57,753 bases of DNA from Blastococcus sp. CT_GayMR20. Its GTDB lineage: Bacteria; Actinomycetota; Actinomycetes; Mycobacteriales; Geodermatophilaceae. Below are positions 1 through 57,753 of the stretch, piece after piece. Numbering within the stretch: the first letter of the stretch is position 1; the number at the start of each line of letters is the position of its first letter. Both the position numbers and the translations under genes were made by a program. Location: NCBI RefSeq assembly GCF_004570345.1, contig NZ_SPQM01000016.1, positions 1 through 57,753 of the forward strand, written 5' to 3'. A model generated the notes under the pieces. The model worked only from the letters and a program-made list of their open reading frames with translations, searched no databases and had not been told where the DNA came from.

Positions 1-136
1 CGAGCATCGACAGGCCGACGCAGCCCTCCATGGACCGGACGGTGGGCATGACCTCGTCGCGGACGTACGAGGTCGCCTCGGGGACCGATGACGCCTCGCC
101 GTGGATCGTCGTCGACCTCGCGTACATCGCAGCCAC
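1..136 (-). CDS. Partial small protein, possibly an antibiotic biosynthesis monooxygenase-like protein
   Basis: Only the first 45 or so residues are inside the window; the gene runs off the left edge. The start is GTG at 136 or ATG at 127. A GGAGG lies about four bases before the GTG and thirteen before the ATG, so the start is unsettled. The visible residues (ARSTTIHGE, then VRDEVMPTVRSMEGCVG) resemble the N-terminal strand and helix of small ABM-type ferredoxin-like-fold proteins, where a beta strand is followed by a helix ending in a GC-G turn. The assignment is tentative because the rest is missing. Confidence 0.45.
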   Translation of the reverse strand, partial: MAAMYARSTTIHGEASSVPEATSYVRDEVMPTVRSMEGCVGLSML

Positions 137-181
137 TCGTCCTCCAGGTGATCACGGGCGGCCCGTGCCGTGCGGCAGCGC

Positions 182-205
182 GGCCGGACAACAGCCTGTC
201 CGGCC
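182..205 (-). terminator. Hairpin 3' of the 84-residue hypothetical gene
   Basis: A perfect 9-bp stem (ggccggaca / tgtccggcc) with a six-base loop sits 22 bases beyond the stop codon of the minus-strand gene 228-482 and before the partial gene. No T-run follows, so this is a terminator-like hairpin as often seen in high-GC genomes. The mirror copy is at 57549-57572. Confidence 0.5.
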
Positions 206-227
206 TGCAGATGAGGGGCAACCGGGA

Positions 228-482
228 CTAGTCGCCGACCGCCCGGGTGCCGAACATGAGCACGCGTCGCTCGAGGTCGTAGTAGACGTCGCTGCTCGCG
301 TGCAGCCAGTCGAACAGGTTGTCGGCGTCCTCGGCCGTCACCCCCAGGATGTGCTCGTCAGCACCGTTGTCCAGGATGAGCTGGAAGGTGTACAGCCCGT
401 CCTGGCCGGATTCCCGGTGGGTGAACGTCGGCTGCCAGTGAGTGACCTTGCGGACCTTGATCTGCTGCGGGCTCACGGTCAT
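228..482 (-). CDS. Hypothetical protein, 84 residues
   Basis: I do not recognise a named family. The start is the ATG giving MTVSPQQIKV, chosen because GAGAGG lies about eight bases upstream; a longer reading to 626 has no such site. The protein has no signal peptide or membrane segment. It is mixed in charge, with an aromatic- and acid-rich middle (TFQLILDNGADEHILGVTAEDADNLFDWL), looks like a small alpha/beta cytosolic domain, and ends in VGD. It is transcribed away from purU across a 281-bp gap and is followed by a 9-bp-stem hairpin, so it is probably monocistronic. No function is proposed. Confidence 0.7.
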   Translation of the reverse strand: MTVSPQQIKVRKVTHWQPTFTHRESGQDGLYTFQLILDNGADEHILGVTAEDADNLFDWLHASSDVYYDLERRVLMFGTRAVGD

Positions 483-763
483 CGCGGGTTCCTCTCGTCG
501 TGCTGCCGCGACGGTTCCCCCGCCGGAGGTGGCGAAAACCCGGCCCTGCGACCGGTGCCCGCCTACGTCGATTGTCGCGGCCGGGGCCGACACCTCGTGC
601 CGTTCGGGAGGCGTCATCTGCGGCATCCCGCGCAGGCGCTCCGATCCCTAGGCTCGGCACGATCCCGACGCCCGGCTCCATGGTTCTCCACGGAGTCCAG
701 CGGGAACGACTCCGGGTGCGGCCGGCCACGCGGCCTCGCCGACCGACCGATAGGAGGAGCGCG
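483..763. other. Divergent intergenic region, 281 bp
   Basis: This gap separates the start of the hypothetical gene (leftward) from purU (rightward) and must hold both promoters. I see the purU Shine-Dalgarno (ggagga, 753-758), but no convincing -10/-35 pair, riboswitch fold or RNA gene. The sequence is GC-rich like its surroundings. Confidence 0.5.
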
Positions 764-1636
764 ATGACGCGGCCCGCCGACGCTCAGCACGGGGTCCTGG
801 TGCTGTCCTGCAAGGATGCCCCCGGGATCGTGCACGCGGTGTCCGGACTGCTCGTCGAGGAGCAGTGCACCATCGTGGAGAGCCACCAGTTCGACAGCCT
901 CGTGAGCGGCATGTTCTACATGCGTGTCGAGTTCGCGCACGCCGACGGTGCCCCGCTGGACTTCGCCCGTCTGTGCCAGGCCTTCGAGCCGATCGCCCAG
1001 CGGTTCCAGATGTCCTGGCGGATGGCCGACGCCGCCGAGCGGCAGCGCGTGCTCATCATGGTCAGCCAGTACGCGCACTGCCTCAACGACCTGCTCTTCC
1101 GCAACTCGGTCGGCGAGCTCAACCTCGACGTGGTCGCCATCGTGTCCAACCACCCGACCCTGAAGGGCATCGCCGACTTCTACGGCGTGCCCTTCCGGCA
1201 CATCCCGGTCACCCGCGAGACCAAGCCCGAGGCGGAGGCGGCGCTCCTCGACATCGTGCGGGAGGAGCGGGTCGACCTGGTGGTGCTGGCCCGCTACATG
1301 CAGATCCTCTCCGACGGCCTGTGCAGGGAGCTCGAGGGCCGGGCGATCAACATCCACCACTCGATGCTGCCGAGCTTCAAGGGGGCCCGCCCGTACCACC
1401 AGGCGCACGCCCGCGGTGTCAAGTTCATCGGCGCGACCGCGCACTACGTCACCGCGGATCTGGACGAGGGACCGATCATCGAGCAGGAGATGTTGCGCGT
1501 CGACCACTCGCTGAGCCCCGAGCAGCTCGCCGCCCGGGGCCGCGAGGCGGAGACCCGGGCCCTCGCGCACGCGGTGCGCTGGCACACCGAGAACCGCGTC
1601 ATCATCAAGGGGAACCGGACCGTCGTCTTCGAGTGA
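764..1636 (+). CDS. purU: Formyltetrahydrofolate deformylase
   Basis: Hydrolyses 10-formyltetrahydrofolate to formate and tetrahydrofolate, balancing one-carbon pools and supplying formate to purine synthesis; cytosolic. The 290-residue length is typical. An N-terminal ACT domain spans about residues 9-90 (VLVLSCKDAPGIVHAVSGLL). A formyltransferase-fold catalytic domain follows from about 95 to the end. The catalytic Asn-His-Asp set fits N196 and H198 in INIHHSMLPSF and D234 in LDEGPII. The start is ATG 764, preceded by GGAGGA; upstream in-frame codons extend into non-coding sequence and lack a ribosome site. It converges on pgi with a 19-bp gap that holds only a weak GC hairpin. Confidence 0.95.
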   Translation: MTRPADAQHGVLVLSCKDAPGIVHAVSGLLVEEQCTIVESHQFDSLVSGMFYMRVEFAHADGAPLDFARLCQAFEPIAQRFQMSWRMADAAERQRVLIMVSQYAHCLNDLLFRNSVGELNLDVVAIVSNHPTLKGIADFYGVPFRHIPVTRETKPEAEAALLDIVREERVDLVVLARYMQILSDGLCRELEGRAINIHHSMLPSFKGARPYHQAHARGVKFIGATAHYVTADLDEGPIIEQEMLRVDHSLSPEQLAARGREAETRALAHAVRWHTENRVIIKGNRTVVFE

Positions 1637-1655
1637 CGTCGGACCGGGCCGACCG

Positions 1656-3287
1656 TCAGGCCGGCCGGCCGCGGCCCTCGCGGAGCAGCTTCACCAACGC
1701 GTTGGTCGAGGAGTCGGAGTCGTACTCCGGCGGGGACGCGCTCTGCAGCTTCGGGGCGAGCTGGTTGGCCATGACCTTGCCGAGCTCGACGCCCCACTGG
1801 TCGAACGGGTTGATGCCCCAGACGACGCCCTGGGTGAAGACGCGGTGCTCGTAGGCGGCGACCAGCTGGCCGAGCACTGCGGGGGTCAGCTTCGGCGCGA
1901 CGATCGCGTTGGAGGGGTGGTTGCCCGGCATCACCTTGTGCGGGACGACGTCCGGCGGCGTCCCCTCGGCGGCGACCTCCTCGGCGGTGCGGCCGAAGGC
2001 CAGCGCCCGCGGCTGGGCGAGGAAGTTCGCCATGAACAGGTCGTGCATCCCGTCCAGGTCGTGGTTGGGCTGCGCGAAGGCGATGAAGTCGGCCGGCACG
2101 AGCACCGTGCCCTGGTGCAGCAGCTGGTAGAAGGCGTGCTGGCCGTTGGTACCCGGCTCGCCCCACACGATCTCGCCGGTCGCGACGTCGACCCGGCCGC
2201 CGTCCAGGGTCACCGACTTTCCGTTGGACTCCATGCACAGCTGCTGCAGGTAGGCGGGGAAGCGGGCGAGGTACTGCGCGTACGGCAGGACGGCGGAGGT
2301 CTGCGCGCCGAAGAAGTCGATGTACCAGAGGGAGATGAGCCCGAGCAGCGCCGGCAGGTTCTCCTCGTACGGCGCCGTCCGGAAGTGCTCGTCCATGGTG
2401 TGGAACCCGTCGAGCAGCTCCCGGTAGTGCGCCGGGCCGATCGCGACCATGAGCGACAGCCCGATCGCCGACGTGAAGGAGTACCGGCCGCCGACCCAGT
2501 CCCAGAAGCCGAACATGTTGTCGGTGTCGATGCCGAACGCGGCGACCTTCTCCGCGTTGGTCGAGACCGCGACGAAGTGCCTGGCGACCGCCTTCTCGTC
2601 CCCGCCGAGGCCCTCGACGAGCCAGCGGCGGGCCTCCGTGGCGTTGGTCAGCGTCTCCTGCGTGGTGAACGTCTTCGACGCGACGATGAACAGCGTGCTG
2701 GCCGGATCGAGGTCCCGAGTGGCCTCGGCCAGGTCGGTGGGGTCGATGTTGGAGACGAAGCGGAAGGTCAGTGCGCGGTCGGAGTAGTCGCGCAGCGCCA
2801 GGTATGCCATGGCCGGCCCGAGGTCGGAGCCGCCGATGCCGATGTTCACCACGGCCCGGATCCGCTCGCCGGTGTGCCCGGTCCACTCGCCGCCGCGCAC
2901 GCGGTCGGCGAAGTCGGCCATCCGCCGCAGTACCTCCTGGACGTCGCGCCGCACCTCCTGCCCGTCGACCTCGAGGCCGCCGGTGCGGGGATCGCGCAGC
3001 GCCACGTGGAGCACGGCGCGGTCCTCGGTGACGTTGATGTGCTCGCCACGGACCATGGCGTCGGTGCGCTCGCGGAGCCCGGCCCGCTCGGCCACCGCCA
3101 CGAGCAGCCGGACCGTCTCGCGGGTCAGCCGGTTCTTGGAGTAGTCGAGGTACAGGTCGCCGGCGCGGCAGGTCAGCTCCTCGCCGCGGCCCGGGTCCTC
3201 GGCGAACAGGTCGCGGAGGTGGACCCCGCTCACCTCGCGGTGGTGCTCCGACAGTGCCTGCCACTCCGGGCTCTCGCTGATCCCCAC
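1656..3287 (-). CDS. pgi: Glucose-6-phosphate isomerase
   Basis: Interconverts glucose 6-phosphate and fructose 6-phosphate in glycolysis, gluconeogenesis and entry to the pentose phosphate route. At 543 residues it is full length. Both family signatures are visible: [14 protein letters not shown] and [14 protein letters not shown]. The sugar-phosphate loop ([15 protein letters not shown]) and the active-site segment [10 protein letters not shown] are also intact. The start is GTG at 3287 after a purine-rich aaggtgg. That ribosome site abuts a small hairpin (3297-3312). The gene lies 43 bp downstream of the glutamine amidotransferase gene on the same strand and may be cotranscribed with it, although the functions are unrelated. 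Confidence 0.96.
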
Positions 3288-3296
3288 CCGTCCACC

Positions 3297-3312
3297 TTCC
3301 CGCAGGCGGGAA
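3297..3312 (-). promoter_or_regulatory. Small hairpin overlapping the pgi ribosome-binding site
   Basis: On the minus strand, TTCCCGC and GCGGGAA form an inverted repeat with two bases between. The 3' arm runs into the aaggtgg before the pgi GTG, so folding could hide the ribosome site, or the hairpin could terminate the upstream gene. There is no T-run. The mirror copy is at 54442-54457. Function is inference only. Confidence 0.35.
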
Positions 3313-3330
3313 CGGGGGGCGACCCCGGGT

Positions 3331-4089
3331 TCAGGCGGTCATGCCCAACTCGGCCGCTGCGGCCACCGTCGTCTCCAGCGTCCGGCGGCGGACGACGAGC
3401 AGGTCGCCGTTGCCGAGCTCCTGCCAGTCGCGGCCCCAGCCGCTGGAGGAGACGACGACGGCGTCGTCGCTCACCCGGTACCGCAGCGTGTAGTACTCCG
3501 GGTCGTCGTCCTCGAGCGGGCCGTCGGGGTCGAACCGGCAGAAGGCGTACAGCTCGTCGGGGGTCAGCAGCAGGCAGTTGAGGCTGGTGAACGGCGTCGT
3601 GGCCGCGATCTCGTCCGCCGTCGTCCGCAGGGCCTCGGCCGGACCGGCGCCGTCGCGCAGCCGTTGGGCGACCGCGAGGAAGTAGCGCTCGCTGTCGGTC
3701 GTGCCGCGGCGCTGCCGCTGCGACCGCTGGGTCAGCAGCTCGTCGAGAGCGGCCGGCGGCCGGATCGAGCCGTTGTGCGCGAAGGCCACGCGTCCGTCGG
3801 TGAAGGGGTGCGTGTTGTCCGGGCCGATGCCCAGCCCGAGCGTGGCCCAGCGCAGGTGCGCGATGCCCGAGTCGGTGCGGCGCCGGCGCGCCCAGCGGGC
3901 GAACTCGTCGCTGGTCCGCGCGGCGTCGGCGCGCTTCCGGACGACCACCCGCCGAAGGGTGCTGCGGGCGACTCCCCAGCCGTCACCGTGCTTGACGGAC
4001 AGCGCCGTGAAGTCGGCGAGGTCGTCCTCGCCGAGGAGGTCGCTCAGGGTCGTGGATGTCCGGGTGGTCCAGCCCAGCAGTCGGCACAC
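3331..4089 (-). CDS. Class II glutamine amidotransferase domain protein
   Basis: A 252-residue N-terminal-nucleophile glutaminase of the YafJ/EgtC-like group. The GTG start is fixed by family logic: it places Cys2 directly after the initiator (MCRLLGW), where processing exposes the catalytic cysteine. Other pocket elements follow: GDGWGVA (35-41), HLRWAT (78-83), NTHPF (92-96) and AHNGS (104-108). No synthetase domain is attached, so the ammonia acceptor is unknown. EgtC of ergothioneine synthesis belongs to this family, but no other egt genes are nearby, so I do not call it egtC. The ribosome site is weak. It follows maoC by 68 bp on the same strand. Confidence 0.85.
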
Positions 4090-4157
4090 GGCTCCACGAT
4101 GACGGAGGAAGGCCCGGATCCGGCGCAACCCCAGGTGGCACCGGCACGTCGCGCCCG

Positions 4158-4609
4158 TCAGCCGTAGAAGCGGAACACCGGCTCGGCGATGCAGACCGGC
4201 TTGGCGGCACCGTCGGCCTCGATCACGGCGGCCACCGTGACCTGCAGGCCGCCGGCGACCTCCTCGACGTCCGTGAGCGTCGCGGTGAGGCGGAGCTTGG
4301 AGCCGACCGGCACGGGGGAGGGGAAGCGCACCTTGTTCAGCCCGTAGTTCACGGCCATCGTCGCGTCGCTGACGGCGAGCACCTCCGACCACATCGGGAT
4401 GAGCAGCGACAGGGTCAGGTACCCGTGACCGATCGGCCCGCCGAAGGGGCTCTCGGCCTTCGCCCGGTCGACGTCGACGTGGATCCACTGGTGGTCACCG
4501 GTGGCGTCGGCGAAGAGGTTCACCCGGTCCTGGGTGACCTCGACCCACTCGCTGGTGCCGAGCTCCGTGCCCTTGAGGGCAGGCAGTTCGGCCATGGTCG
4601 TGGTGGTGC

Positions 4610-4613
<4 letters not shown>
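4158..4613 (-). CDS. MaoC family dehydratase
   Basis: A 151-residue single hotdog-fold protein likely to be an (R)-specific enoyl-CoA hydratase adding water to a trans-2-enoyl-CoA. The hydratase-2 motif is clear: FADATGDHQWIH with candidate catalytic D40 and H45, then GGPIGHGYLTLSLL (58-71). The start ATG overlaps the stop of the CoA-ligase gene as ATGA, so the two are translationally coupled. It is the last gene of the four-gene operon starting at 7934, and would act on the CoA thioester made by its neighbour. Substrate chain length or ring type cannot be read from the sequence. Confidence 0.9.
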
Positions 4614-6153
<1,540 letters not shown>

Positions 6154-6157
<4 letters not shown>

Positions 6158-7029
6158 CGCAGCCCCAGTGCCTTGATCGCGTTCTCCTTCATGATGAGCG
6201 GCTTCACCTCGGGCTTGATGTCCAGCTGCTCGAAGTCGGCGATCCAGCGCTCGGGGCGCAGCAGCGGGTAGTCCGACCCGAAGAGCACCTTGTGCTTCAG
6301 CAGCCCGTTGGCGGCCTTGACCAGCTGCGGCGGGAAGTACTTGGGCGACCAGCCGGACAGGTCGATGTAGACGTTGGCCTTGTGGGTGGCCACCGAGATG
6401 GCGGCGTCCTGCCAGGGCACCGAGGGGTGCGCCATGATGATCGTCAGGCCGGGGAAGTCGGCGGCGACGTCGTCGAGCAGCATCGGGTCGGAGTACCGCA
6501 GCTTGATGCCGCGCCCCCCCGGGAGGCCCGCGCCGATGCCGGTCTGGCCGGTGTGGAACAGCGCCGGCACGCCGAGGCTCTGGATCTCCTCGAAGAGCGG
6601 GTAGACCGACCGGTCGTTGGGCTCGAAGGCCTGGATCGACGGGTGGAACTTGAAGCCGCGGACCCCGTGCGACTCCACGAGCTTGCGGGCCAGCCGGATG
6701 CCGGACAGGCCGCGAGCGGGGTCGACCGAGCCGAAGGGGATGAGCACGTCGGGGTGTTCCGCGGCCAGGTCGGCGATCTCCTCGTTGGAGAGCGCGGGCT
6801 GGCCGGTGGCCATCTCGGTGTCGACGCTGAACACCACGGCGGCCATGTTCTTGGCCCGGTAGTCCGCCGCGATGTCGGGCACCGTCGGGTCGTACGGGTC
6901 GCCCTTGAAGTACTTCGAGGCGGCCGCGGACAGCTCGTCGTCCAGGGCCATGTGCCCGTGCGTGTCGGCGTGCACGTGGGTGTGCACGTCGATGGCCACG
7001 AGTGCGTCGAGGTCCAGTCGGAGGCTCAT
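6154..7029 (-). CDS. Amidohydrolase-2 family metal-dependent enzyme
   Basis: A 291-residue TIM-barrel protein. The metal-binding HxH is H16/H18 in DVHTHVH. Later barrel positions are seen as KFHP, LFHTGQTG, MAHPS and FGSDYPLL, the last supplying the metal-binding aspartate. The family includes decarboxylases (ACMSD, gamma-resorcylate decarboxylase type) and C-C or ring hydrolases, so the reaction may be a decarboxylation or ring opening rather than amide hydrolysis. It overlaps both neighbours by ATGA. Its place between an oxidoreductase and a CoA ligase suits an enzyme that produces or trims the acid to be activated. This is inference from context. Confidence 0.88.
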
Positions 7030-7934
7030 TTCGGCGGCTCCGGGAACTGCTGGCCGACGGTCTGCTGGGACGGCGCGAAGCGGTCGGGCCAGATGCCGGC
7101 GATGGCGTCGGCCGACCAGCCGGTGCCGTCGGCGAACTCGACCACGGCCTCGGTCGGGTGGGACCACAGGGCGAGGCGGTCGCCCCCGATCCCGATGGCC
7201 TGGCCGGTGATGCCCGCGGCGGCGTCGGAGGCGAGGAAGGCGACCAGTCCGGCGGCGTCCTCGGGGGGACCGAAGGCCAGTTCCCGGCGGGCGTACGGGG
7301 GCAGCGGTTCGCCGGCCTGCAGCGCGTCCACGTAGGGCTTGAGGAAGGGCACTGTCTCGGTCATCCCGGTCGCGGCGACGGGGACGATCGCGTTGACCGT
7401 GATCTCGGCCCGGGCCAGCTCCATCGCCCAGGTGCGGACCATGCCGACGATCCCGGCCTTGGCCGCGGCGTAGTTGGTCTGCCCGAAGTTGCCGACCTGG
7501 CCGGTGGGGGAGCCGACGCAGATGATCCGGCCGCCCTCGCCCTGCTCGCGGAGCTTGATCGCGGCGGCCCGGGTGCAGGTGAACGTGCCGCGCAGGTGCG
7601 TGGCGACGACCGCGTCGAACTGCTCGTCGGTCATCTTCCAGAGGGTCGAGTCGCGCAGGATGCCGGCGTTGTTGACGAGGATGTCGAGCCGCCCGAACTC
7701 GTTCGCGGCACGGTCGACCAGTGCCTGGGCGGCCTCGCTCGACCCCACGGCGACCACCTCGGCGACGGCGCTGCCGCCGGCGTCGGTGATCGTCTTCACC
7801 GCGGCGTCGGCGACCTCGGGGTCGACGTCGTTGATGACGACGGCGGCGCCCGAGCGGGCCAGTTCGGTGGCGTAGGCGAGGCCGAGGCCCCGCCCGGATC
7901 CGGTGACGACGGCGACCTTGCCGGTCAGGTCCAC
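7026..7934 (-). CDS. SDR family NAD(P)-dependent oxidoreductase
   Basis: A 302-residue classical short-chain dehydrogenase. The cofactor loop TGSGRGLG is at 11-18, followed by an acidic D36 after the second strand, which favours NAD(H). The NNAG motif is at 88-91 and the catalytic set is S142, Y155 and K159 (YAAAK). It is about 50 residues longer than FabG-type enzymes, with the extra length at the C-terminus, recalling the dehydrogenase part of multifunctional beta-oxidation enzymes. The GTG start follows GAGGAG. As first gene of the operon it probably oxidises a hydroxy intermediate; MarR and its operator lie directly upstream. Confidence 0.92.
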   Translation of the reverse strand: MDLTGKVAVVTGSGRGLGLAYATELARSGAAVVINDVDPEVADAAVKTITDAGGSAVAEVVAVGSSEAAQALVDRAANEFGRLDILVNNAGILRDSTLWKMTDEQFDAVVATHLRGTFTCTRAAAIKLREQGEGGRIICVGSPTGQVGNFGQTNYAAAKAGIVGMVRTWAMELARAEITVNAIVPVAATGMTETVPFLKPYVDALQAGEPLPPYARRELAFGPPEDAAGLVAFLASDAAAGITGQAIGIGGDRLALWSHPTEAVVEFADGTGWSADAIAGIWPDRFAPSQQTVGQQFPEPPK

Positions 7935-7981
7935 GGCTGCTCCTCATCAAGGCGGGGGTGGTGCGGGCAACGTAGGCGGGT

Positions 7982-8002
7982 ATCGTTGAGGTTGTCAACG
8001 AT
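7982..8002. promoter_or_regulatory. Candidate MarR operator
   Basis: A perfect inverted repeat, ATCGTTGA-5 bp-TCAACGAT, lies between the divergent SDR operon and the MarR gene. It ends 10 bases before the MarR start and 48 bases before the SDR start. The size and symmetry are what a dimeric MarR regulator binds, so repression of both operon and regulator, relieved by a ligand, is the simplest reading. Mirror copy: 49752-49772. Confidence 0.75.
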
Positions 8003-8012
8003 GGAGGTGTCC

Positions 8013-8441
8013 ATGGAACAGCCCCTGGCCGACGACTTGGGTTTCCTGCTCTCCCGCGCCAGCGGACAGGTCGTGCGGGCGACGAACGCCGCCCTGGCCG
8101 AGCACGGGCTGCGGGTGCGGCACTACTCGGTCCTGGTGCTGGCCTGTGAGTCCGAGAGCGGGCTGAGTCAGCGTGAGCTGGCCACGGTGCTCGGGTTGGA
8201 TCCCTCGCAGGTGGTCCTCCTCGTCGACGAACTGGCCGCCGCCGGACTGGTCGAGCGCCAGGCCCCGGAGGGCGACCGGCGGACCCGGCTGGTGGTCGCC
8301 ACGTCCGAGGGGCGCCGTGTCCGGAAGGCCGCTGGTGAGGACGCCGACGCCGCCGTCGAAGGACCGCTCAGCCTGCTGGGGGACACCGAGAGGGACAGGC
8401 TCCGCGACATGCTGACCCGGATCTGGAGCGCTACCGGCTGA
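8013..8441 (+). CDS. MarR family transcriptional regulator
   Basis: A 142-residue winged-helix dimer typical of MarR. The recognition-helix region reads SQRELATVLGLDPSQVVLLVDELAAAGLV and the wing follows as RQAPEGDRRTRLVVAT, with the usual D-R-R. I chose ATG 8013 over the in-frame ATG 8001 because GGAGGT sits just before 8013, whereas 8001 lies in the operator. It is transcribed away from the SDR-amidohydrolase-ligase-MaoC operon, the standard layout for a local repressor that senses a pathway substrate or its CoA ester. It ends 57 bp from the convergent PaaX-type gene. Confidence 0.92.
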   Translation: MEQPLADDLGFLLSRASGQVVRATNAALAEHGLRVRHYSVLVLACESESGLSQRELATVLGLDPSQVVLLVDELAAAGLVERQAPEGDRRTRLVVATSEGRRVRKAAGEDADAAVEGPLSLLGDTERDRLRDMLTRIWSATG

Positions 8442-8442
8442 A

Positions 8443-8498
8443 GAAGGGCCACCTCCTCCCCACCACCCGTACCTAGCGGCGGGCCCCTGGGGGAGGCC
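8443..8498. repeat. Dispersed GC-rich palindromic repeat, copy A
   Basis: It fills the gap between the convergent MarR and PaaX genes. The core ccccaccaccg..., then gcggcgggcccctg, with flanking arms (ggccacctcc / ggaggcc), matches copies B (23579-23640) and C (17680-17742). A is the most divergent copy. Placed here it could also act as a two-way terminator. Mirror copy: 49256-49311. Confidence 0.72.
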
Positions 8499-9350
8499 TC
8501 AGGGGAGGCGGCCGCTCGCGCGGAGGCTGCGCTCGAGTGCCGCCCGGGCAGCCGGTTCCAGGCCGTCGAACACCCGTCGGTAGACGGCACTGCTGGTGGG
8601 CGCCGGCCAGTCCGCGCCCAGCTGAGCTGCAGGCAGACCGGGATCGGTCCGCAGCAGGGACAACCAGTCCGCACCCAGCAGCGTCAGCTGGGCGAGCGAG
8701 CCCGACACCCGCGGCGGGCGGCTCCAGGTCTCGATGAACCACGTGTGCGCCGCGCGGACGGCCGGCACGTCCCAGGCCCGGTGCACCAGCCGGTCGAGGT
8801 CGGTGCCCGGGAGGGCCCGGGCGGCGAACGCGTCGGCCAGTTGCGCGACCTCGACCAGGTCGGACCGGCCCAGCACGGCCGTGACGTCGACGGTGCCCGG
8901 AGCGATCCACAGGCCGTCCCGCAGGCCACCGAAACCGGCCCAGGTGAGCCGAGCCCGCACCCGGTGCCGCAGGTCGCGCCGGCTCTCGGGCACCGAATAG
9001 CTGAGCAGCGTCCACTCGCCCGCGGGGTGCTCGAACGGCGCCGCTGACGCCACCCGCTCACGGGCCTCGCGCAGCACCTCCTCGGCGAGCGGGGTGAGCG
9101 CGTACTCCGCCGTCCTCCCGACCTGACCGCGCGAGAACAGGCCGCGCTGGGTCATGCGCTTGAGGGTCGCCCGAGCCGCCGCCTCGGTGACGCCGAGGTC
9201 GGCCAGCAGGTCCAGCAGGGTCATCGAGGGCAGTGGGGGCAGCTCGGAGTCGAGGACCACCGCGCCCAGGAAGCTGAGAAGGAGGGACTGGGGCCGGTGG
9301 GCGGCCGGCCCGGGCTGCGCATCGTCCTCGACGACCGGTACCGCGCTCAT
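8499..9350 (-). CDS. PaaX family transcriptional regulator
   Basis: A 283-residue protein with the PaaX layout: an N-terminal winged helix (SMTLLDLLADLGVTEAAARATLKRMTQRGLF, about 42-72), a central domain beginning WTLLSYSVPESRRDLRHRVR, and a C-terminal domain. PaaX proteins repress aromatic-acid pathways and release DNA on binding an aryl-CoA such as phenylacetyl-CoA. The ATG start follows a GGAGGGA-type site. It is divergent from the transporter-ligase-aldehyde dehydrogenase operon, and the shared 159-bp gap holds a symmetric repeat. The ligand here is probably the CoA ester made by the ligase at 14353-15936. Confidence 0.88.
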   Translation of the reverse strand: MSAVPVVEDDAQPGPAAHRPQSLLLSFLGAVVLDSELPPLPSMTLLDLLADLGVTEAAARATLKRMTQRGLFSRGQVGRTAEYALTPLAEEVLREARERVASAAPFEHPAGEWTLLSYSVPESRRDLRHRVRARLTWAGFGGLRDGLWIAPGTVDVTAVLGRSDLVEVAQLADAFAARALPGTDLDRLVHRAWDVPAVRAAHTWFIETWSRPPRVSGSLAQLTLLGADWLSLLRTDPGLPAAQLGADWPAPTSSAVYRRVFDGLEPAARAALERSLRASGRLP

Positions 9351-9398
9351 CTACCGCTCCCTCCTGTTCCCGGTCTCATCGACGTCACGATCCACCGT

Positions 9399-9448
9399 CA
9401 AAAGTTAGACATCTCCTTGACGGACGTTCGTAGTCACTCTAGCTTTTG
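9399..9448. promoter_or_regulatory. Candidate operator between the PaaX gene and the transporter operon
   Basis: Two inverted 11-bp boxes, CAAAAGTTAGA and TCTAGCTTTTG (one mismatch), are 28 bp apart. A near-palindrome ACGGACGTTCGT lies between them. The block is markedly AT-richer than its surroundings and overlaps the predicted rightward promoter, so the divergent regulator could block it. Mirror copy: 48306-48355. Confidence 0.6.
9417..9445 (+). promoter_or_regulatory. Predicted promoter of the transporter operon
   Basis: TTGACG (9417-9422) and TAGCTT (9440-9445) are separated by 17 bp, a good primary-sigma pair in an otherwise GC-rich region. Transcription would start about 55-60 bases before the ATG at 9510. 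The -10 box lies inside one arm of the inverted repeat. Mirror copy: 48309-48337. Confidence 0.55.
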
Positions 9449-9509
9449 CGTGACCTGGAACACCATGGGCCACCTCGCTGGGGTTGACCGGCCAGCCGGA
9501 AGGACGCCG

Positions 9510-14347: not shown

Positions 14348-14352
14348 CCGCC

Positions 14353-17482: not shown

Positions 17483-17497
17483 CCTCCCCAGTCGGCT

Positions 17498-43401: not shown

Positions 43402-43406
43402 GGCGG

Positions 43407-46685: not shown

Positions 46686-48244
46686 ACGGCTGCCGCTCCC
46701 AGGTAGGCACGGAGGACCTCGGGGTCGCGTTGGACCTCGGCCGGGGTGCCCTCGGCGATCTTCTTGCCGAAGTCGAGGACCGTCACCTGCTCGGCGAGAC
46801 CCATGACGAAGGGCATGTCGTGTTCGACGAGCAGGATCGACAGTCCGAGGTCGCGGCGGACCTGCCGGATGGTCTCGGCCATCTCCTGCGACTCTCCGTG
46901 GGTCATGCCCGCGACCGGCTCGTCCAGCAGGAGCAGCGACGGCCGGGCGGCCAGCGCCCGGCCCATCTCCACGCGCTTGCGGTTGCCGTAGGACAGGCTG
47001 TGCACGGGCGTACGCAGCAGCGGGGTCAGGCCGAGCAGCTCCGCGATGTCGCGAACGGTCTCCCGGTGGACGCGCTCCTCGCGCCGCGCCCGCGGCGTCC
47101 GCACGGCCCCGGACAGCACGCCGGAGCGCATCAGCCGGTGCCGGCCGACGAGCAGGTTGTCCTCGACCGTGTCCTCGAGGGCCAGCGAGATGTTCTGGAA
47201 GGTCCGCGCCACGCCGAGCCCGGCGGTGCGGTGTGCGGGCAGCGCGGTGAGGACGTCGTCGCCGTAGGTGACCCGCCCCTCGGTGGCCCGGTAGGCGCCA
47301 CCGAGCACGTTGATGCAGGTCGACTTGCCGGCCCCGTTCGGGCCGATGAGCGCGTGGACCGTGCCGGGGTCGATCTGGAAGGACACCCCGGACAGGGCAG
47401 CGATGCCGCCGAAGCGCACGGTCAGGTCCTCGACGGCGAGCCGTTTGGGCGCCTCGGCCGTCGGGATCGCCGGCTCGGACACCAGCACGTCGACGGGCCG
47501 TACCGGGACGGCGACACCGAGGTACCGCTCGCGCACGTCGTCGCTGGCGGCGAGTTCGTCGGCGCTGCCCGAGGCCGTCACGTGGCCGACCTCCAGGACG
47601 TAGGCCCGGTCGGCGACGCGCAGGCCCATGACGGCGTTCTGCTCGATCAGCAGGACGGCCGTTCCCTGCCCGTTGATCTGGGTGACGATCTCGCCGATCT
47701 GGTCGACCAGCAGCGGGGCCAGTCCCAGGGACGGCTCGTCGAGGAGCAGCAGCTCGGGCGATGTCATCAGGGCCCGGCCCATCGCCAGCATCTGCTGCTG
47801 ACCGCCGGAGAGCAGCCCGCCGAGCTGGGTGCGCCGCTCGGCCAGCACCGGGAAGAGCTCGAAGACCCGGTCGCGGGCCTCGTTGCGGCGCTTGGCGTCC
47901 CGGACCGTGAACCCGCCGGCCTGGAGGTTCTCCTCGACGGTCAGGTCACGGAACACCCGTCGCCCCTCGGGCACCTGCATCAGGCCCCGCCGGACGACCT
48001 CCGATGCGTCCATCCCGGCCAGGTCGACACCCTTGTAGCGGATCGTCCCCCCCGTGACCGAGCCACCGTAGGAGCCCAGCGCGCGGGAGATGGCCCGCAG
48101 GAGCGACGTCTTCCCGGCACCGTTGGAGCCCAGGACGGCGACGACCGAACCGGCTCCGACCTCCAGCGAGACGTCCCGAAGGGCCTGGACGGCGCCGTCG
48201 TAGGAGACATCGAGGTGCTCCACGCTCAGCAGCGGTGCTGTCAT
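46682..48244 (-). CDS. Fused LivF-LivG type ATPase (mirror copy)
   Basis: Mirror of 9510-11072; two complete ATPase domains in one 520-residue chain. The frame reads through with no stop between the halves here too. Confidence 0.91.
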   Translation of the reverse strand: MTAPLLSVEHLDVSYDGAVQALRDVSLEVGAGSVVAVLGSNGAGKTSLLRAISRALGSYGGSVTGGTIRYKGVDLAGMDASEVVRRGLMQVPEGRRVFRDLTVEENLQAGGFTVRDAKRRNEARDRVFELFPVLAERRTQLGGLLSGGQQQMLAMGRALMTSPELLLLDEPSLGLAPLLVDQIGEIVTQINGQGTAVLLIEQNAVMGLRVADRAYVLEVGHVTASGSADELAASDDVRERYLGVAVPVRPVDVLVSEPAIPTAEAPKRLAVEDLTVRFGGIAALSGVSFQIDPGTVHALIGPNGAGKSTCINVLGGAYRATEGRVTYGDDVLTALPAHRTAGLGVARTFQNISLALEDTVEDNLLVGRHRLMRSGVLSGAVRTPRARREERVHRETVRDIAELLGLTPLLRTPVHSLSYGNRKRVEMGRALAARPSLLLLDEPVAGMTHGESQEMAETIRQVRRDLGLSILLVEHDMPFVMGLAEQVTVLDFGKKIAEGTPAEVQRDPEVLRAYLGAAAV

Positions 48245-48305
48245 CGGCGTCCTTCCGGCTGGCCGGTCAACCCCAGCGAGGTGGCCCATGGTGTTCCAGG
48301 TCACG

Positions 48306-48355
48306 CAAAAGCTAGAGTGACTACGAACGTCCGTCAAGGAGATGTCTAACTTTTG
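48306..48355. promoter_or_regulatory. Candidate operator and promoter of the PaaX/transporter gap (mirror copy)
   Basis: Mirror of 9399-9448. The promoter pair TTGACG/TAGCTT for the leftward transporter operon falls at 48309-48337. Confidence 0.57.
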
Positions 48356-48403
48356 ACGGTGGATCGTGACGTCGATGAGACCGGGAACAGGAGGGAGCGG
48401 TAG

Positions 48404-49255
48404 ATGAGCGCGGTACCGGTCGTCGAGGACGATGCGCAGCCCGGGCCGGCCGCCCACCGGCCCCAGTCCCTCCTTCTCAGCTTCCTGGGCGCGGTGGTCC
48501 TCGACTCCGAGCTGCCCCCACTGCCCTCGATGACCCTGCTGGACCTGCTGGCCGACCTCGGCGTCACCGAGGCGGCGGCTCGGGCGACCCTCAAGCGCAT
48601 GACCCAGCGCGGCCTGTTCTCGCGCGGTCAGGTCGGGAGGACGGCGGAGTACGCGCTCACCCCGCTCGCCGAGGAGGTGCTGCGCGAGGCCCGTGAGCGG
48701 GTGGCGTCAGCGGCGCCGTTCGAGCACCCCGCGGGCGAGTGGACGCTGCTCAGCTATTCGGTGCCCGAGAGCCGGCGCGACCTGCGGCACCGGGTGCGGG
48801 CTCGGCTCACCTGGGCCGGTTTCGGTGGCCTGCGGGACGGCCTGTGGATCGCTCCGGGCACCGTCGACGTCACGGCCGTGCTGGGCCGGTCCGACCTGGT
48901 CGAGGTCGCGCAACTGGCCGACGCGTTCGCCGCCCGGGCCCTCCCGGGCACCGACCTCGACCGGCTGGTGCACCGGGCCTGGGACGTGCCGGCCGTCCGC
49001 GCGGCGCACACGTGGTTCATCGAGACCTGGAGCCGCCCGCCGCGGGTGTCGGGCTCGCTCGCCCAGCTGACGCTGCTGGGTGCGGACTGGTTGTCCCTGC
49101 TGCGGACCGATCCCGGTCTGCCTGCAGCTCAGCTGGGCGCGGACTGGCCGGCGCCCACCAGCAGTGCCGTCTACCGACGGGTGTTCGACGGCCTGGAACC
49201 GGCTGCCCGGGCGGCACTCGAGCGCAGCCTCCGCGCGAGCGGCCGCCTCCCCTGA
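48404..49255 (+). CDS. PaaX family transcriptional regulator (mirror copy)
   Basis: Mirror of 8499-9350. On this strand a clear ggaggga precedes the ATG at 48404 by about nine bases. Confidence 0.86.
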   Translation: MSAVPVVEDDAQPGPAAHRPQSLLLSFLGAVVLDSELPPLPSMTLLDLLADLGVTEAAARATLKRMTQRGLFSRGQVGRTAEYALTPLAEEVLREARERVASAAPFEHPAGEWTLLSYSVPESRRDLRHRVRARLTWAGFGGLRDGLWIAPGTVDVTAVLGRSDLVEVAQLADAFAARALPGTDLDRLVHRAWDVPAVRAAHTWFIETWSRPPRVSGSLAQLTLLGADWLSLLRTDPGLPAAQLGADWPAPTSSAVYRRVFDGLEPAARAALERSLRASGRLP

Positions 49256-49311
49256 GGCCTCCCCCAGGGGCCCGCCGCTAGGTACGGGTGGTGGGGAGGA
49301 GGTGGCCCTTC
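49256..49311. repeat. Dispersed palindromic repeat, copy A (mirror)
   Basis: Reverse complement of 8443-8498, filling the gap between the PaaX and MarR genes. Confidence 0.7.
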
Positions 49312-49312
49312 T

Positions 49313-49741
49313 TCAGCCGGTAGCGCTCCAGATCCGGGTCAGCATGTCGCGGAGCCTGTCCCTCTCGGTGTCCCCCAGCAGGCTGAGCGGTCCTTCGACG
49401 GCGGCGTCGGCGTCCTCACCAGCGGCCTTCCGGACACGGCGCCCCTCGGACGTGGCGACCACCAGCCGGGTCCGCCGGTCGCCCTCCGGGGCCTGGCGCT
49501 CGACCAGTCCGGCGGCGGCCAGTTCGTCGACGAGGAGGACCACCTGCGAGGGATCCAACCCGAGCACCGTGGCCAGCTCACGCTGACTCAGCCCGCTCTC
49601 GGACTCACAGGCCAGCACCAGGACCGAGTAGTGCCGCACCCGCAGCCCGTGCTCGGCCAGGGCGGCGTTCGTCGCCCGCACGACCTGTCCGCTGGCGCGG
49701 GAGAGCAGGAAACCCAAGTCGTCGGCCAGGGGCTGTTCCAT
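49313..49741 (-). CDS. MarR family transcriptional regulator (mirror copy)
   Basis: Mirror of 8013-8441; 142 residues, start after GGAGGT. Confidence 0.9.
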   Translation of the reverse strand: MEQPLADDLGFLLSRASGQVVRATNAALAEHGLRVRHYSVLVLACESESGLSQRELATVLGLDPSQVVLLVDELAAAGLVERQAPEGDRRTRLVVATSEGRRVRKAAGEDADAAVEGPLSLLGDTERDRLRDMLTRIWSATG

Positions 49742-49751
49742 GGACACCTCC

Positions 49752-49772
49752 ATCGTTGACAACCTCAACGAT
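49752..49772. promoter_or_regulatory. Candidate MarR operator (mirror copy)
   Basis: Mirror of 7982-8002; perfect ATCGTTGA / TCAACGAT half-sites with 5 bp between. Confidence 0.73.
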
Positions 49773-49819
49773 ACCCGCCTACGTTGCCCGCACCACCCCC
49801 GCCTTGATGAGGAGCAGCC

Positions 49820-50728
49820 GTGGACCTGACCGGCAAGGTCGCCGTCGTCACCGGATCCGGGCGGGGCCTCGGCCTCGCCTACGCCACCGAACTGGCCCGC
49901 TCGGGCGCCGCCGTCGTCATCAACGACGTCGACCCCGAGGTCGCCGACGCCGCGGTGAAGACGATCACCGACGCCGGCGGCAGCGCCGTCGCCGAGGTGG
50001 TCGCCGTGGGGTCGAGCGAGGCCGCCCAGGCACTGGTCGACCGTGCCGCGAACGAGTTCGGGCGGCTCGACATCCTCGTCAACAACGCCGGCATCCTGCG
50101 CGACTCGACCCTCTGGAAGATGACCGACGAGCAGTTCGACGCGGTCGTCGCCACGCACCTGCGCGGCACGTTCACCTGCACCCGGGCCGCCGCGATCAAG
50201 CTCCGCGAGCAGGGCGAGGGCGGCCGGATCATCTGCGTCGGCTCCCCCACCGGCCAGGTCGGCAACTTCGGGCAGACCAACTACGCCGCGGCCAAGGCCG
50301 GGATCGTCGGCATGGTCCGCACCTGGGCGATGGAGCTGGCCCGGGCCGAGATCACGGTCAACGCGATCGTCCCCGTCGCCGCGACCGGGATGACCGAGAC
50401 AGTGCCCTTCCTCAAGCCCTACGTGGACGCGCTGCAGGCCGGCGAACCGCTGCCCCCGTACGCCCGCCGGGAACTGGCCTTCGGTCCCCCCGAGGACGCC
50501 GCCGGACTGGTCGCCTTCCTCGCCTCCGACGCCGCCGCGGGCATCACCGGCCAGGCCATCGGGATCGGGGGCGACCGCCTCGCCCTGTGGTCCCACCCGA
50601 CCGAGGCCGTGGTCGAGTTCGCCGACGGCACCGGCTGGTCGGCCGACGCCATCGCCGGCATCTGGCCCGACCGCTTCGCGCCGTCCCAGCAGACCGTCGG
50701 CCAGCAGTTCCCGGAGCCGCCGAAATGA
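49820..50728 (+). CDS. SDR family oxidoreductase (mirror copy)
   Basis: Mirror of 7026-7934; GTG start after gaggag, with S142, Y155 and K159 intact. Confidence 0.9.
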   Translation: MDLTGKVAVVTGSGRGLGLAYATELARSGAAVVINDVDPEVADAAVKTITDAGGSAVAEVVAVGSSEAAQALVDRAANEFGRLDILVNNAGILRDSTLWKMTDEQFDAVVATHLRGTFTCTRAAAIKLREQGEGGRIICVGSPTGQVGNFGQTNYAAAKAGIVGMVRTWAMELARAEITVNAIVPVAATGMTETVPFLKPYVDALQAGEPLPPYARRELAFGPPEDAAGLVAFLASDAAAGITGQAIGIGGDRLALWSHPTEAVVEFADGTGWSADAIAGIWPDRFAPSQQTVGQQFPEPPK

Positions 50729-51596
50729 GCCTCCGACTGGACCTCGACGCACTCGTGGCCATCGACGTGCACACCCACGTGCACGCCGACACGCACGGGC
50801 ACATGGCCCTGGACGACGAGCTGTCCGCGGCCGCCTCGAAGTACTTCAAGGGCGACCCGTACGACCCGACGGTGCCCGACATCGCGGCGGACTACCGGGC
50901 CAAGAACATGGCCGCCGTGGTGTTCAGCGTCGACACCGAGATGGCCACCGGCCAGCCCGCGCTCTCCAACGAGGAGATCGCCGACCTGGCCGCGGAACAC
51001 CCCGACGTGCTCATCCCCTTCGGCTCGGTCGACCCCGCTCGCGGCCTGTCCGGCATCCGGCTGGCCCGCAAGCTCGTGGAGTCGCACGGGGTCCGCGGCT
51101 TCAAGTTCCACCCGTCGATCCAGGCCTTCGAGCCCAACGACCGGTCGGTCTACCCGCTCTTCGAGGAGATCCAGAGCCTCGGCGTGCCGGCGCTGTTCCA
51201 CACCGGCCAGACCGGCATCGGCGCGGGCCTCCCGGGGGGGCGCGGCATCAAGCTGCGGTACTCCGACCCGATGCTGCTCGACGACGTCGCCGCCGACTTC
51301 CCCGGCCTGACGATCATCATGGCGCACCCCTCGGTGCCCTGGCAGGACGCCGCCATCTCGGTGGCCACCCACAAGGCCAACGTCTACATCGACCTGTCCG
51401 GCTGGTCGCCCAAGTACTTCCCGCCGCAGCTGGTCAAGGCCGCCAACGGGCTGCTGAAGCACAAGGTGCTCTTCGGGTCGGACTACCCGCTGCTGCGCCC
51501 CGAGCGCTGGATCGCCGACTTCGAGCAGCTGGACATCAAGCCCGAGGTGAAGCCGCTCATCATGAAGGAGAACGCGATCAAGGCACTGGGGCTGCG

Positions 51597-51600
<4 letters not shown>
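50725..51600 (+). CDS. Amidohydrolase-2 family enzyme (mirror copy)
   Basis: Mirror of 6154-7029; HxH at H16/H18 and metal-binding aspartate in FGSDYP. Confidence 0.86.
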
Positions 51601-53140
<1,540 letters not shown>

Positions 53141-53144
<4 letters not shown>

Positions 53145-53596
53145 GCACCACCACGACCATGGCCGAACTGCCTGCCCTCAAGGGCACGGAGCTCGGCACC
53201 AGCGAGTGGGTCGAGGTCACCCAGGACCGGGTGAACCTCTTCGCCGACGCCACCGGTGACCACCAGTGGATCCACGTCGACGTCGACCGGGCGAAGGCCG
53301 AGAGCCCCTTCGGCGGGCCGATCGGTCACGGGTACCTGACCCTGTCGCTGCTCATCCCGATGTGGTCGGAGGTGCTCGCCGTCAGCGACGCGACGATGGC
53401 CGTGAACTACGGGCTGAACAAGGTGCGCTTCCCCTCCCCCGTGCCGGTCGGCTCCAAGCTCCGCCTCACCGCGACGCTCACGGACGTCGAGGAGGTCGCC
53501 GGCGGCCTGCAGGTCACGGTGGCCGCCGTGATCGAGGCCGACGGTGCCGCCAAGCCGGTCTGCATCGCCGAGCCGGTGTTCCGCTTCTACGGCTGA
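53141..53596 (+). CDS. MaoC family dehydratase (mirror copy)
   Basis: Mirror of 4158-4613; ATGA overlap with the ligase gene, D40 and H45 present. Confidence 0.88.
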
Positions 53597-53664
53597 CGGG
53601 CGCGACGTGCCGGTGCCACCTGGGGTTGCGCCGGATCCGGGCCTTCCTCCGTCATCGTGGAGCC

Positions 53665-54423
53665 GTGTGCCGACTGCTGGGCTGGACCACCCGGACATCC
53701 ACGACCCTGAGCGACCTCCTCGGCGAGGACGACCTCGCCGACTTCACGGCGCTGTCCGTCAAGCACGGTGACGGCTGGGGAGTCGCCCGCAGCACCCTTC
53801 GGCGGGTGGTCGTCCGGAAGCGCGCCGACGCCGCGCGGACCAGCGACGAGTTCGCCCGCTGGGCGCGCCGGCGCCGCACCGACTCGGGCATCGCGCACCT
53901 GCGCTGGGCCACGCTCGGGCTGGGCATCGGCCCGGACAACACGCACCCCTTCACCGACGGACGCGTGGCCTTCGCGCACAACGGCTCGATCCGGCCGCCG
54001 GCCGCTCTCGACGAGCTGCTGACCCAGCGGTCGCAGCGGCAGCGCCGCGGCACGACCGACAGCGAGCGCTACTTCCTCGCGGTCGCCCAACGGCTGCGCG
54101 ACGGCGCCGGTCCGGCCGAGGCCCTGCGGACGACGGCGGACGAGATCGCGGCCACGACGCCGTTCACCAGCCTCAACTGCCTGCTGCTGACCCCCGACGA
54201 GCTGTACGCCTTCTGCCGGTTCGACCCCGACGGCCCGCTCGAGGACGACGACCCGGAGTACTACACGCTGCGGTACCGGGTGAGCGACGACGCCGTCGTC
54301 GTCTCCTCCAGCGGCTGGGGCCGCGACTGGCAGGAGCTCGGCAACGGCGACCTGCTCGTCGTCCGCCGCCGGACGCTGGAGACGACGGTGGCCGCAGCGG
54401 CCGAGTTGGGCATGACCGCCTGA
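53665..54423 (+). CDS. Class II glutamine amidotransferase domain protein (mirror copy)
   Basis: Mirror of 3331-4089; the GTG at 53665 is followed directly by the catalytic Cys codon TGC. Confidence 0.83.
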
Positions 54424-54441
54424 ACCCGGGGTCGCCCCCCG

Positions 54442-54457
54442 TTCCCGCCTGCGGGAA
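54442..54457 (+). promoter_or_regulatory. Hairpin at the pgi ribosome-binding site (mirror copy)
   Basis: Mirror of 3297-3312; ttcccgc-ct-gcgggaa, immediately before aaggtgg and the pgi GTG. Confidence 0.33.
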
Positions 54458-54466
54458 GGTGGACGG

Positions 54467-56098
54467 GTGGGGATCAGCGAGAGCCCGGAGTGGCAGGCAC
54501 TGTCGGAGCACCACCGCGAGGTGAGCGGGGTCCACCTCCGCGACCTGTTCGCCGAGGACCCGGGCCGCGGCGAGGAGCTGACCTGCCGCGCCGGCGACCT
54601 GTACCTCGACTACTCCAAGAACCGGCTGACCCGCGAGACGGTCCGGCTGCTCGTGGCGGTGGCCGAGCGGGCCGGGCTCCGCGAGCGCACCGACGCCATG
54701 GTCCGTGGCGAGCACATCAACGTCACCGAGGACCGCGCCGTGCTCCACGTGGCGCTGCGCGATCCCCGCACCGGCGGCCTCGAGGTCGACGGGCAGGAGG
54801 TGCGGCGCGACGTCCAGGAGGTACTGCGGCGGATGGCCGACTTCGCCGACCGCGTGCGCGGCGGCGAGTGGACCGGGCACACCGGCGAGCGGATCCGGGC
54901 CGTGGTGAACATCGGCATCGGCGGCTCCGACCTCGGGCCGGCCATGGCATACCTGGCGCTGCGCGACTACTCCGACCGCGCACTGACCTTCCGCTTCGTC
55001 TCCAACATCGACCCCACCGACCTGGCCGAGGCCACTCGGGACCTCGATCCGGCCAGCACGCTGTTCATCGTCGCGTCGAAGACGTTCACCACGCAGGAGA
55101 CGCTGACCAACGCCACGGAGGCCCGCCGCTGGCTCGTCGAGGGCCTCGGCGGGGACGAGAAGGCGGTCGCCAGGCACTTCGTCGCGGTCTCGACCAACGC
55201 GGAGAAGGTCGCCGCGTTCGGCATCGACACCGACAACATGTTCGGCTTCTGGGACTGGGTCGGCGGCCGGTACTCCTTCACGTCGGCGATCGGGCTGTCG
55301 CTCATGGTCGCGATCGGCCCGGCGCACTACCGGGAGCTGCTCGACGGGTTCCACACCATGGACGAGCACTTCCGGACGGCGCCGTACGAGGAGAACCTGC
55401 CGGCGCTGCTCGGGCTCATCTCCCTCTGGTACATCGACTTCTTCGGCGCGCAGACCTCCGCCGTCCTGCCGTACGCGCAGTACCTCGCCCGCTTCCCCGC
55501 CTACCTGCAGCAGCTGTGCATGGAGTCCAACGGAAAGTCGGTGACCCTGGACGGCGGCCGGGTCGACGTCGCGACCGGCGAGATCGTGTGGGGCGAGCCG
55601 GGTACCAACGGCCAGCACGCCTTCTACCAGCTGCTGCACCAGGGCACGGTGCTCGTGCCGGCCGACTTCATCGCCTTCGCGCAGCCCAACCACGACCTGG
55701 ACGGGATGCACGACCTGTTCATGGCGAACTTCCTCGCCCAGCCGCGGGCGCTGGCCTTCGGCCGCACCGCCGAGGAGGTCGCCGCCGAGGGGACGCCGCC
55801 GGACGTCGTCCCGCACAAGGTGATGCCGGGCAACCACCCCTCCAACGCGATCGTCGCGCCGAAGCTGACCCCCGCAGTGCTCGGCCAGCTGGTCGCCGCC
55901 TACGAGCACCGCGTCTTCACCCAGGGCGTCGTCTGGGGCATCAACCCGTTCGACCAGTGGGGCGTCGAGCTCGGCAAGGTCATGGCCAACCAGCTCGCCC
56001 CGAAGCTGCAGAGCGCGTCCCCGCCGGAGTACGACTCCGACTCCTCGACCAACGCGTTGGTGAAGCTGCTCCGCGAGGGCCGCGGCCGGCCGGCCTGA
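54467..56098 (+). CDS. pgi: Glucose-6-phosphate isomerase (mirror copy)
   Basis: Mirror of 1656-3287; 543 residues with both family signatures. Confidence 0.94.
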
Positions 56099-56117
56099 CG
56101 GTCGGCCCGGTCCGACG

Positions 56118-56990
56118 TCACTCGAAGACGACGGTCCGGTTCCCCTTGATGATGACGCGGTTCTCGGTGTGCCAGCGCACCGCGTGCGCGAGGGCCCGGG
56201 TCTCCGCCTCGCGGCCCCGGGCGGCGAGCTGCTCGGGGCTCAGCGAGTGGTCGACGCGCAACATCTCCTGCTCGATGATCGGTCCCTCGTCCAGATCCGC
56301 GGTGACGTAGTGCGCGGTCGCGCCGATGAACTTGACACCGCGGGCGTGCGCCTGGTGGTACGGGCGGGCCCCCTTGAAGCTCGGCAGCATCGAGTGGTGG
56401 ATGTTGATCGCCCGGCCCTCGAGCTCCCTGCACAGGCCGTCGGAGAGGATCTGCATGTAGCGGGCCAGCACCACCAGGTCGACCCGCTCCTCCCGCACGA
56501 TGTCGAGGAGCGCCGCCTCCGCCTCGGGCTTGGTCTCGCGGGTGACCGGGATGTGCCGGAAGGGCACGCCGTAGAAGTCGGCGATGCCCTTCAGGGTCGG
56601 GTGGTTGGACACGATGGCGACCACGTCGAGGTTGAGCTCGCCGACCGAGTTGCGGAAGAGCAGGTCGTTGAGGCAGTGCGCGTACTGGCTGACCATGATG
56701 AGCACGCGCTGCCGCTCGGCGGCGTCGGCCATCCGCCAGGACATCTGGAACCGCTGGGCGATCGGCTCGAAGGCCTGGCACAGACGGGCGAAGTCCAGCG
56801 GGGCACCGTCGGCGTGCGCGAACTCGACACGCATGTAGAACATGCCGCTCACGAGGCTGTCGAACTGGTGGCTCTCCACGATGGTGCACTGCTCCTCGAC
56901 GAGCAGTCCGGACACCGCGTGCACGATCCCGGGGGCATCCTTGCAGGACAGCACCAGGACCCCGTGCTGAGCGTCGGCGGGCCGCGTCAT
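56118..56990 (-). CDS. purU: Formyltetrahydrofolate deformylase (mirror copy)
   Basis: Mirror of 764-1636; ACT domain plus formyltransferase domain with N196, H198 and D234. Confidence 0.93.
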   Translation of the reverse strand: MTRPADAQHGVLVLSCKDAPGIVHAVSGLLVEEQCTIVESHQFDSLVSGMFYMRVEFAHADGAPLDFARLCQAFEPIAQRFQMSWRMADAAERQRVLIMVSQYAHCLNDLLFRNSVGELNLDVVAIVSNHPTLKGIADFYGVPFRHIPVTRETKPEAEAALLDIVREERVDLVVLARYMQILSDGLCRELEGRAINIHHSMLPSFKGARPYHQAHARGVKFIGATAHYVTADLDEGPIIEQEMLRVDHSLSPEQLAARGREAETRALAHAVRWHTENRVIIKGNRTVVFE

Positions 56991-57271
56991 CGCGCTCCTC
57001 CTATCGGTCGGTCGGCGAGGCCGCGTGGCCGGCCGCACCCGGAGTCGTTCCCGCTGGACTCCGTGGAGAACCATGGAGCCGGGCGTCGGGATCGTGCCGA
57101 GCCTAGGGATCGGAGCGCCTGCGCGGGATGCCGCAGATGACGCCTCCCGAACGGCACGAGGTGTCGGCCCCGGCCGCGACAATCGACGTAGGCGGGCACC
57201 GGTCGCAGGGCCGGGTTTTCGCCACCTCCGGCGGGGGAACCGTCGCGGCAGCACGACGAGAGGAACCCGCG

Positions 57272-57526
57272 ATGACCGTGAGCCCGCAGCAGATCAAGGT
57301 CCGCAAGGTCACTCACTGGCAGCCGACGTTCACCCACCGGGAATCCGGCCAGGACGGGCTGTACACCTTCCAGCTCATCCTGGACAACGGTGCTGACGAG
57401 CACATCCTGGGGGTGACGGCCGAGGACGCCGACAACCTGTTCGACTGGCTGCACGCGAGCAGCGACGTCTACTACGACCTCGAGCGACGCGTGCTCATGT
57501 TCGGCACCCGGGCGGTCGGCGACTAG
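57272..57526 (+). CDS. Hypothetical protein, 84 residues (mirror copy)
   Basis: Mirror of 228-482; the ATG at 57272 follows gagagg. Confidence 0.68.
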   Translation: MTVSPQQIKVRKVTHWQPTFTHRESGQDGLYTFQLILDNGADEHILGVTAEDADNLFDWLHASSDVYYDLERRVLMFGTRAVGD

Positions 57527-57548
57527 TCCCGGTTGCCCCTCATCTGCA

Positions 57549-57572
57549 GGCCGGACAGGCTGTTGTCCGGCC
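57549..57572 (+). terminator. Hairpin 3' of the 84-residue gene (mirror copy)
   Basis: Mirror of 182-205; 9-bp perfect stem ggccggaca / tgtccggcc, no T-run. Confidence 0.48.
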
Positions 57573-57617
57573 GCGCTGCCGCACGGCACGGGCCGCCCGT
57601 GATCACCTGGAGGACGA

Positions 57618-57753
57618 GTGGCTGCGATGTACGCGAGGTCGACGACGATCCACGGCGAGGCGTCATCGGTCCCCGAGGCGACCTCGTACGTCCGCGACGA
57701 GGTCATGCCCACCGTCCGGTCCATGGAGGGCTGCGTCGGCCTGTCGATGCTCG
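57618..57753 (+). CDS. Partial small ABM-like protein (mirror copy)
   Basis: Mirror of 1-136, running off the right edge at exactly the same codon as the left copy runs off the left edge. Confidence 0.43.
   Translation, partial: MAAMYARSTTIHGEASSVPEATSYVRDEVMPTVRSMEGCVGLSML

Follow-up and report, generated by a model that had tools for sequence, protein, structure and literature searches.

Inverted duplications that arise by template switching inside the cell consist of head-to-head copies at a short inverted repeat, with the parental copy kept and unique sequence on the flanks. In multiple displacement amplification (MDA), displaced 3′ ends reanneal to nearby strands; of 475 chimeras, 406 were inverted, and in 337 of those the joined pieces lay less than 10 kb apart, with complementary bases at 93.5% of the close inverted junctions (PMC1855051). 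The overlap peaked at 6 nt and mostly measured 5-8 nt, and the distances ranged from 0 to more than 5000 nt with a peak at 250-300 (PMC4595205). Palindromes were reported in 43.6% and 47.8% of the reads of two amplified Arabidopsis sets and in 11.8% of those of an amplified gorilla set, against 0.5% in an unamplified control (PMC6218980); palindromic reads after amplification are likewise the topic of PMC13265396. As regards assembled sequences, exactly mirrored contigs in single-cell genomes were removed as likely artefacts (PMC12755884), and palindromic contigs, with redundant annotation as the result, were encountered in genomes of Mycobacterium bovis (PMC9455707), which suggests that such contigs can form without amplification. 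In PMC7325909 and PMC3043068, palindromes come up only in connection with CRISPR.

Here we consider a stretch of DNA from Blastococcus sp. CT_GayMR20, hereafter the window (the whole stretch analysed, 57,753 nt), which is almost certainly a fold-back artefact and not a real giant palindrome.

Symmetry of the contig and position of the turn

Set against its own reverse complement, the window differed at 95 positions, all within 28818-28936, with 0 mismatches elsewhere: two arms of 28817 bases each, exact reverse complements of one another, enclose a centre of 119 bases (Table 1). The earlier note had claimed an inverted repeat with these same arm and loop coordinates, and this comparison bears it out. 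Chance cannot be the source of such symmetry. A protein search with the prfC fragment of the window returned P0113, a window-encoded protein of 373 aa that matches 82% of the query at 100% identity; its longest contig measures 57753 bases, so that the window very probably represents an entire contig, mirrored to both ends. As in palindromic contigs, one half is the exact mirror of the other. The G+C content is 72%, and no tRNA is found within the 57,753-nt window.

Table 1. Coordinates of the arms, the loop and the junction elements of the contig.
Feature	Position	Strand	Basis
Left arm, an ordinary chromosomal segment that extends from pgi as far as prfC and is regarded as the real copy	1..28817	+	Collinear with B. 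litoris G003:C2:488864-518170
Loop of 119 bases, native prfC continuation beyond the arm	28818..28936	+	17 of 20 relatives align to 28936
Right arm, the left arm written again, reversed	28937..57753	-	Exact reverse complement of 1-28817
prfC fragment (peptide chain release factor 3), 453 codons plus stop	27575..28936	-	NCBIfam NF001964.0
GGCGGCG, putative annealing site of the turning 3′ end	28811..28817	+	Complement of CGCCGCC
CGCCGCC at the fold-back junction	28937..28943	+	Same 7 bases natively in 6 of the 18 closest loci

The prfC fragment covers positions 74-525 of the 529 in its family profile and lacks about 85 codons of the first part of the gene (453 vs. about 538), the sequence leaving the gene at 28936/28937. 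Among the 120 prfC relatives listed (of 7696), 117 measure 522-549 aa and span the fragment completely; the exceptions are P0112 (468 aa), P0119 (477 aa) and the window's own P0113. These 120 include no intact prfC of the same strain, the best full-length relatives being 94% identical. By prfC, the nearest loci in the genome_contigs collection are those of Blastococcus sp. CT_GayMR19 (L014, 95% amino acid identity) and B. haudaquaticus (L001, 94%), so that the contig itself is not represented in that collection. In viral_contigs, an exact 37-mer spanning the junction is without a match. Seventeen of the 18 closest loci (L001-L018) are titled Blastococcus, and the remaining one, L002, carries the title "UNVERIFIED_ORG: Bacillus sp. 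AZ43"; its prfC is 93% identical to that of the window and it shares the Blastococcus gene order, so that this name looks wrong.

The point at which the window departs from its relatives can be placed precisely. The alignments of 17 of the 20 best loci run across the loop and end at 28936, while those of L005, L007 and L008 end at 28915, where the sequence of these three differs. Read base by base in 34 loci (L001-L034), the native text enters the rest of prfC, whereas the window turns to CGCCGCCAAGG and so reads the arm back from 28817 in reverse complement; in the upstream frame of six translated relatives, the conserved first part of the prfC protein follows. By these alignments, prfC natively continues into the loop, whereas the junction is not native. 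At the turn, the sequence passes from 28936/28937 back to 28817 and thereby connects, in opposite orientation, two segments of the same genome that lie less than 10 kb apart, an arrangement expected of MDA-type inverted chimeras. Two ORFs of 1415 aa span the centre, one per strand (26733-30980 on the minus and 26774-31021 on the plus strand), and they are mirror images of each other because of the fold-back. A perfect 14-base palindrome, GGGCCTCGAGGCCC, lies at 28795-28808, 2 bases ahead of the putative annealing site, and is mirrored at 28946.

Given where the arms end, CGCCGCC at 28937-28943 necessarily complements GGCGGCG at 28811-28817, and the overlap was accordingly counted as the number of identical bases, from the junction on, between the chimera and the native sequence of the relatives. 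On this count, which reflects the relatives' sequence, the 18 closest loci share 7 bases in six cases, 6 in one, 3 in seven and 0 in four, and the full set of 34 loci shares 7 bases in 7, 6 in 3, 3 in 11 and 0 in 13; B. litoris shares 0, the first position already differing. An overlap of at least 7 bases at a spacing of 119 occurs at 6 of 28300 arm positions, and when the partner may lie anywhere within 300 bases, a 7-base match exists at 46 of 744, so that such overlaps are not rare in the G+C-rich DNA of the window. A microhomology of up to 7 bases at the turn is plausible from these sequence counts, not proven.

The arm in related genomes

The gene content of the arm reads as that of an ordinary, Blastococcus-like chromosome of a soil actinobacterium. 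It comprises genes for phosphoglucose isomerase, a class-II amidotransferase-like ORF, an AMP-binding enzyme, an SDR and a PaaX-like regulator, followed by branched-chain ABC transporter genes, an acyl-CoA ligase, aldehyde dehydrogenases and 3-oxoacid CoA-transferase A and B; towards the turn lie a response-regulator/thioredoxin-reductase-like protein, a histidine kinase, a 272-aa protein without NCBIfam match, and prfC. For 17 genes of the window compared with relatives (two matches listed per gene), the best matches listed were nearly full-length and in a single frame, except for an ABC-transporter gene whose match stops at the boundary between two compared stretches; in one aldehyde dehydrogenase the first 19 residues are likewise left unmatched. 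prfC is the sole gene of the 17 that the turn cuts.

Some features of the arm deserve mention in their own right. The protein of 552 aa in the 23670-26758 region combines response-regulator-like and thioredoxin-reductase-like parts and overlaps the start of the histidine kinase gene, and the pair is present in several relatives. The contig end (1-190) gives weak matches at several places in each related genome searched and is perhaps a gene of a multi-copy family. The pgi gene (1656-3287) is on the same contig as prfC in genome G006 (L013) and adjoins prfC directly in Geodermatophilus sabuli (L029), and it is absent from the collinear place in B. litoris.

Sixty kb of B. litoris were aligned to the window. 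The arm is single there and collinear over 29.3 kb, and the right arm of the window matches the same stretch again, inverted. The alignments total 24737 bases, 7 of which lie past the junction, leaving 24730 of 28936, and the largest gap (1637-4149) contains pgi. One strong prfC match per genome (E at most 1e-148, all other matches being 3.5e-6 or weaker) was obtained in all 15 related genomes included in the count, which left out that of L010. A scan of 80 related loci (most with 10 kb on either side, some cut by contig ends) for inverted repeats of 200 bp or longer at 95% identity gave none, and across these 80 loci the only arm matches beyond the prfC start were four of 47-63 bp, in L029, L032 and L048. 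The expectation of the earlier note that a related genome would have prfC intact is thus confirmed, the gene being also single there and the arm single and collinear in B. litoris. The same note had expected prfC to lie next to the gene with the CTAG overlap, here the 272-aa one: the two genes adjoin directly in L005, but are about 1 kb apart in L001, L002 and L004, and in L011, L015 and L018 they are separated by 3.7-5.4 kb; the overlap exists in the window (27575-27578), but is absent in L005, the sole relative inspected for it.

Origin of the mirrored structure

The fold-back probably stems from phi29 MDA. A DNA 3′ end would have been copied through prfC to about 28936-28943 and then displaced; the displaced end would have annealed by a few bases some 120 back (up to CGCCGCC on GGCGGCG, 28811-28817), and its extension in the reverse direction would have yielded a fold-back molecule. 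At the junction, a graph assembler may not have seen or followed the true continuation of prfC, and would instead have followed the arm as far as the junction and returned over it in reverse complement, so that a single 28.8-kb consensus was entered two times. Such a path through arm, loop and reversed arm would account for both ends falling at one and the same base and for the lack of any difference between the arms. We infer both the assembler step and the overlap length in Blastococcus sp. CT_GayMR20. The spacing of about 120 is within the range published for such chimeras and below their peak of 250-300 nt, and an overlap of up to 7 bases would also lie within the published range.

A fold-back chimera, or an assembler walking through a hairpin, had been put forward in the earlier note, and is supported by the single prfC of the relatives, the collinear arm of B. 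litoris and the native loop. The mirrored edges, which the note had also read as a sign of artefact, are indeed there, the symmetry reaching to both edges, but they are weaker evidence than was claimed, because the assembly of a real inverted duplication would likewise yield mirrored ends; such ends, taken alone, do not tell it apart from an artefact.

The same artefact might have arisen without phi29, by hairpin extension or fold-back in ordinary library preparation that was then taken up by a low-coverage assembly. We regard this route as a tentative second choice within the artefact reading: the palindromic M. bovis contigs were ascribed to assembly error (PMC9455707), and an overlap of a few bases would serve here also, but palindromic reads are far commoner in amplified sets (PMC6218980).

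Much less probable is a real and very recent head-to-head inverted duplication of 28.8 kb, formed in vivo by template switching at GGCGGCG/CGCCGCC, with one prfC copy broken and the two copies collapsed and mirrored by the assembler. We consider it highly unlikely, although its junction signature would be identical to the one seen and the ends would be expected to be mirrored all the same. A duplication in vivo normally keeps an intact prfC, and a branch of the assembly graph would be expected at 28936, where the contig runs straight on; moreover, the arms are without any difference and no such structure appears in the 80 related loci. An old inverted duplication is rejected by the zero divergence between the arms.

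It is exceedingly improbable that the contig arose because sequencing passed round the covalently closed hairpin end of a linear replicon. Such an end would give an exact inverted repeat around a short centre; nevertheless, the window turns back within prfC, its loop consists of native coding sequence in which 95 of 119 positions are not self-complementary, and its genes are those of a chromosome and collinear with B. litoris. In the plasmid collection, 46 records match 4150-28936 and none covers over 80% of the query, the best one listed covering 11% at 73-74% identity. A hairpin-ended replicon would carry a self-complementary telomere outside core genes, and here the turn cuts prfC in chromosomal content. 

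The earlier note also named unsplit long reads. A contig that derives from one such read, its adapter having been missed, fits less well, the loop being native sequence, and we give it next to no credence: missed adapters likewise produce palindromic reads (PMC6218980), but the centre would be adapter or nothing, whereas 119 native bases are observed, and two passes of a raw read would not be expected to agree over 28817 bases without one difference.

Consequences and comparison with described systems

The fold-back artefact has little weight as biology and some as quality control. Every gene of the arm is counted twice in the contig, and its truncated prfC product is already in the protein collection (P0113). 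Programs that take long inverted terminal repeats as the mark of a complete linear replicon could be misled. Proper handling would consist in cutting the contig at 28936 and retaining one arm.

With in-cell template-switch duplications, the contig shares the head-to-head copies at a short inverted repeat, whereas the parental copy and the unique flanks are not seen in the window. The resemblance to phi29 MDA inverted chimeras, as described in PMC1855051 and PMC4595205, extends to the inverted second segment, the pieces about 120 bases apart and a possible short complementary overlap; those chimeras were, however, described in reads, while the window is a whole mirrored contig, which would need the additional assembler step. 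With the palindromic artefact contigs of PMC12755884 and PMC9455707 it has in common that genes are annotated twice; the passages on those contigs are without junction anatomy, whereas in the window the turn is placed to one base inside prfC.
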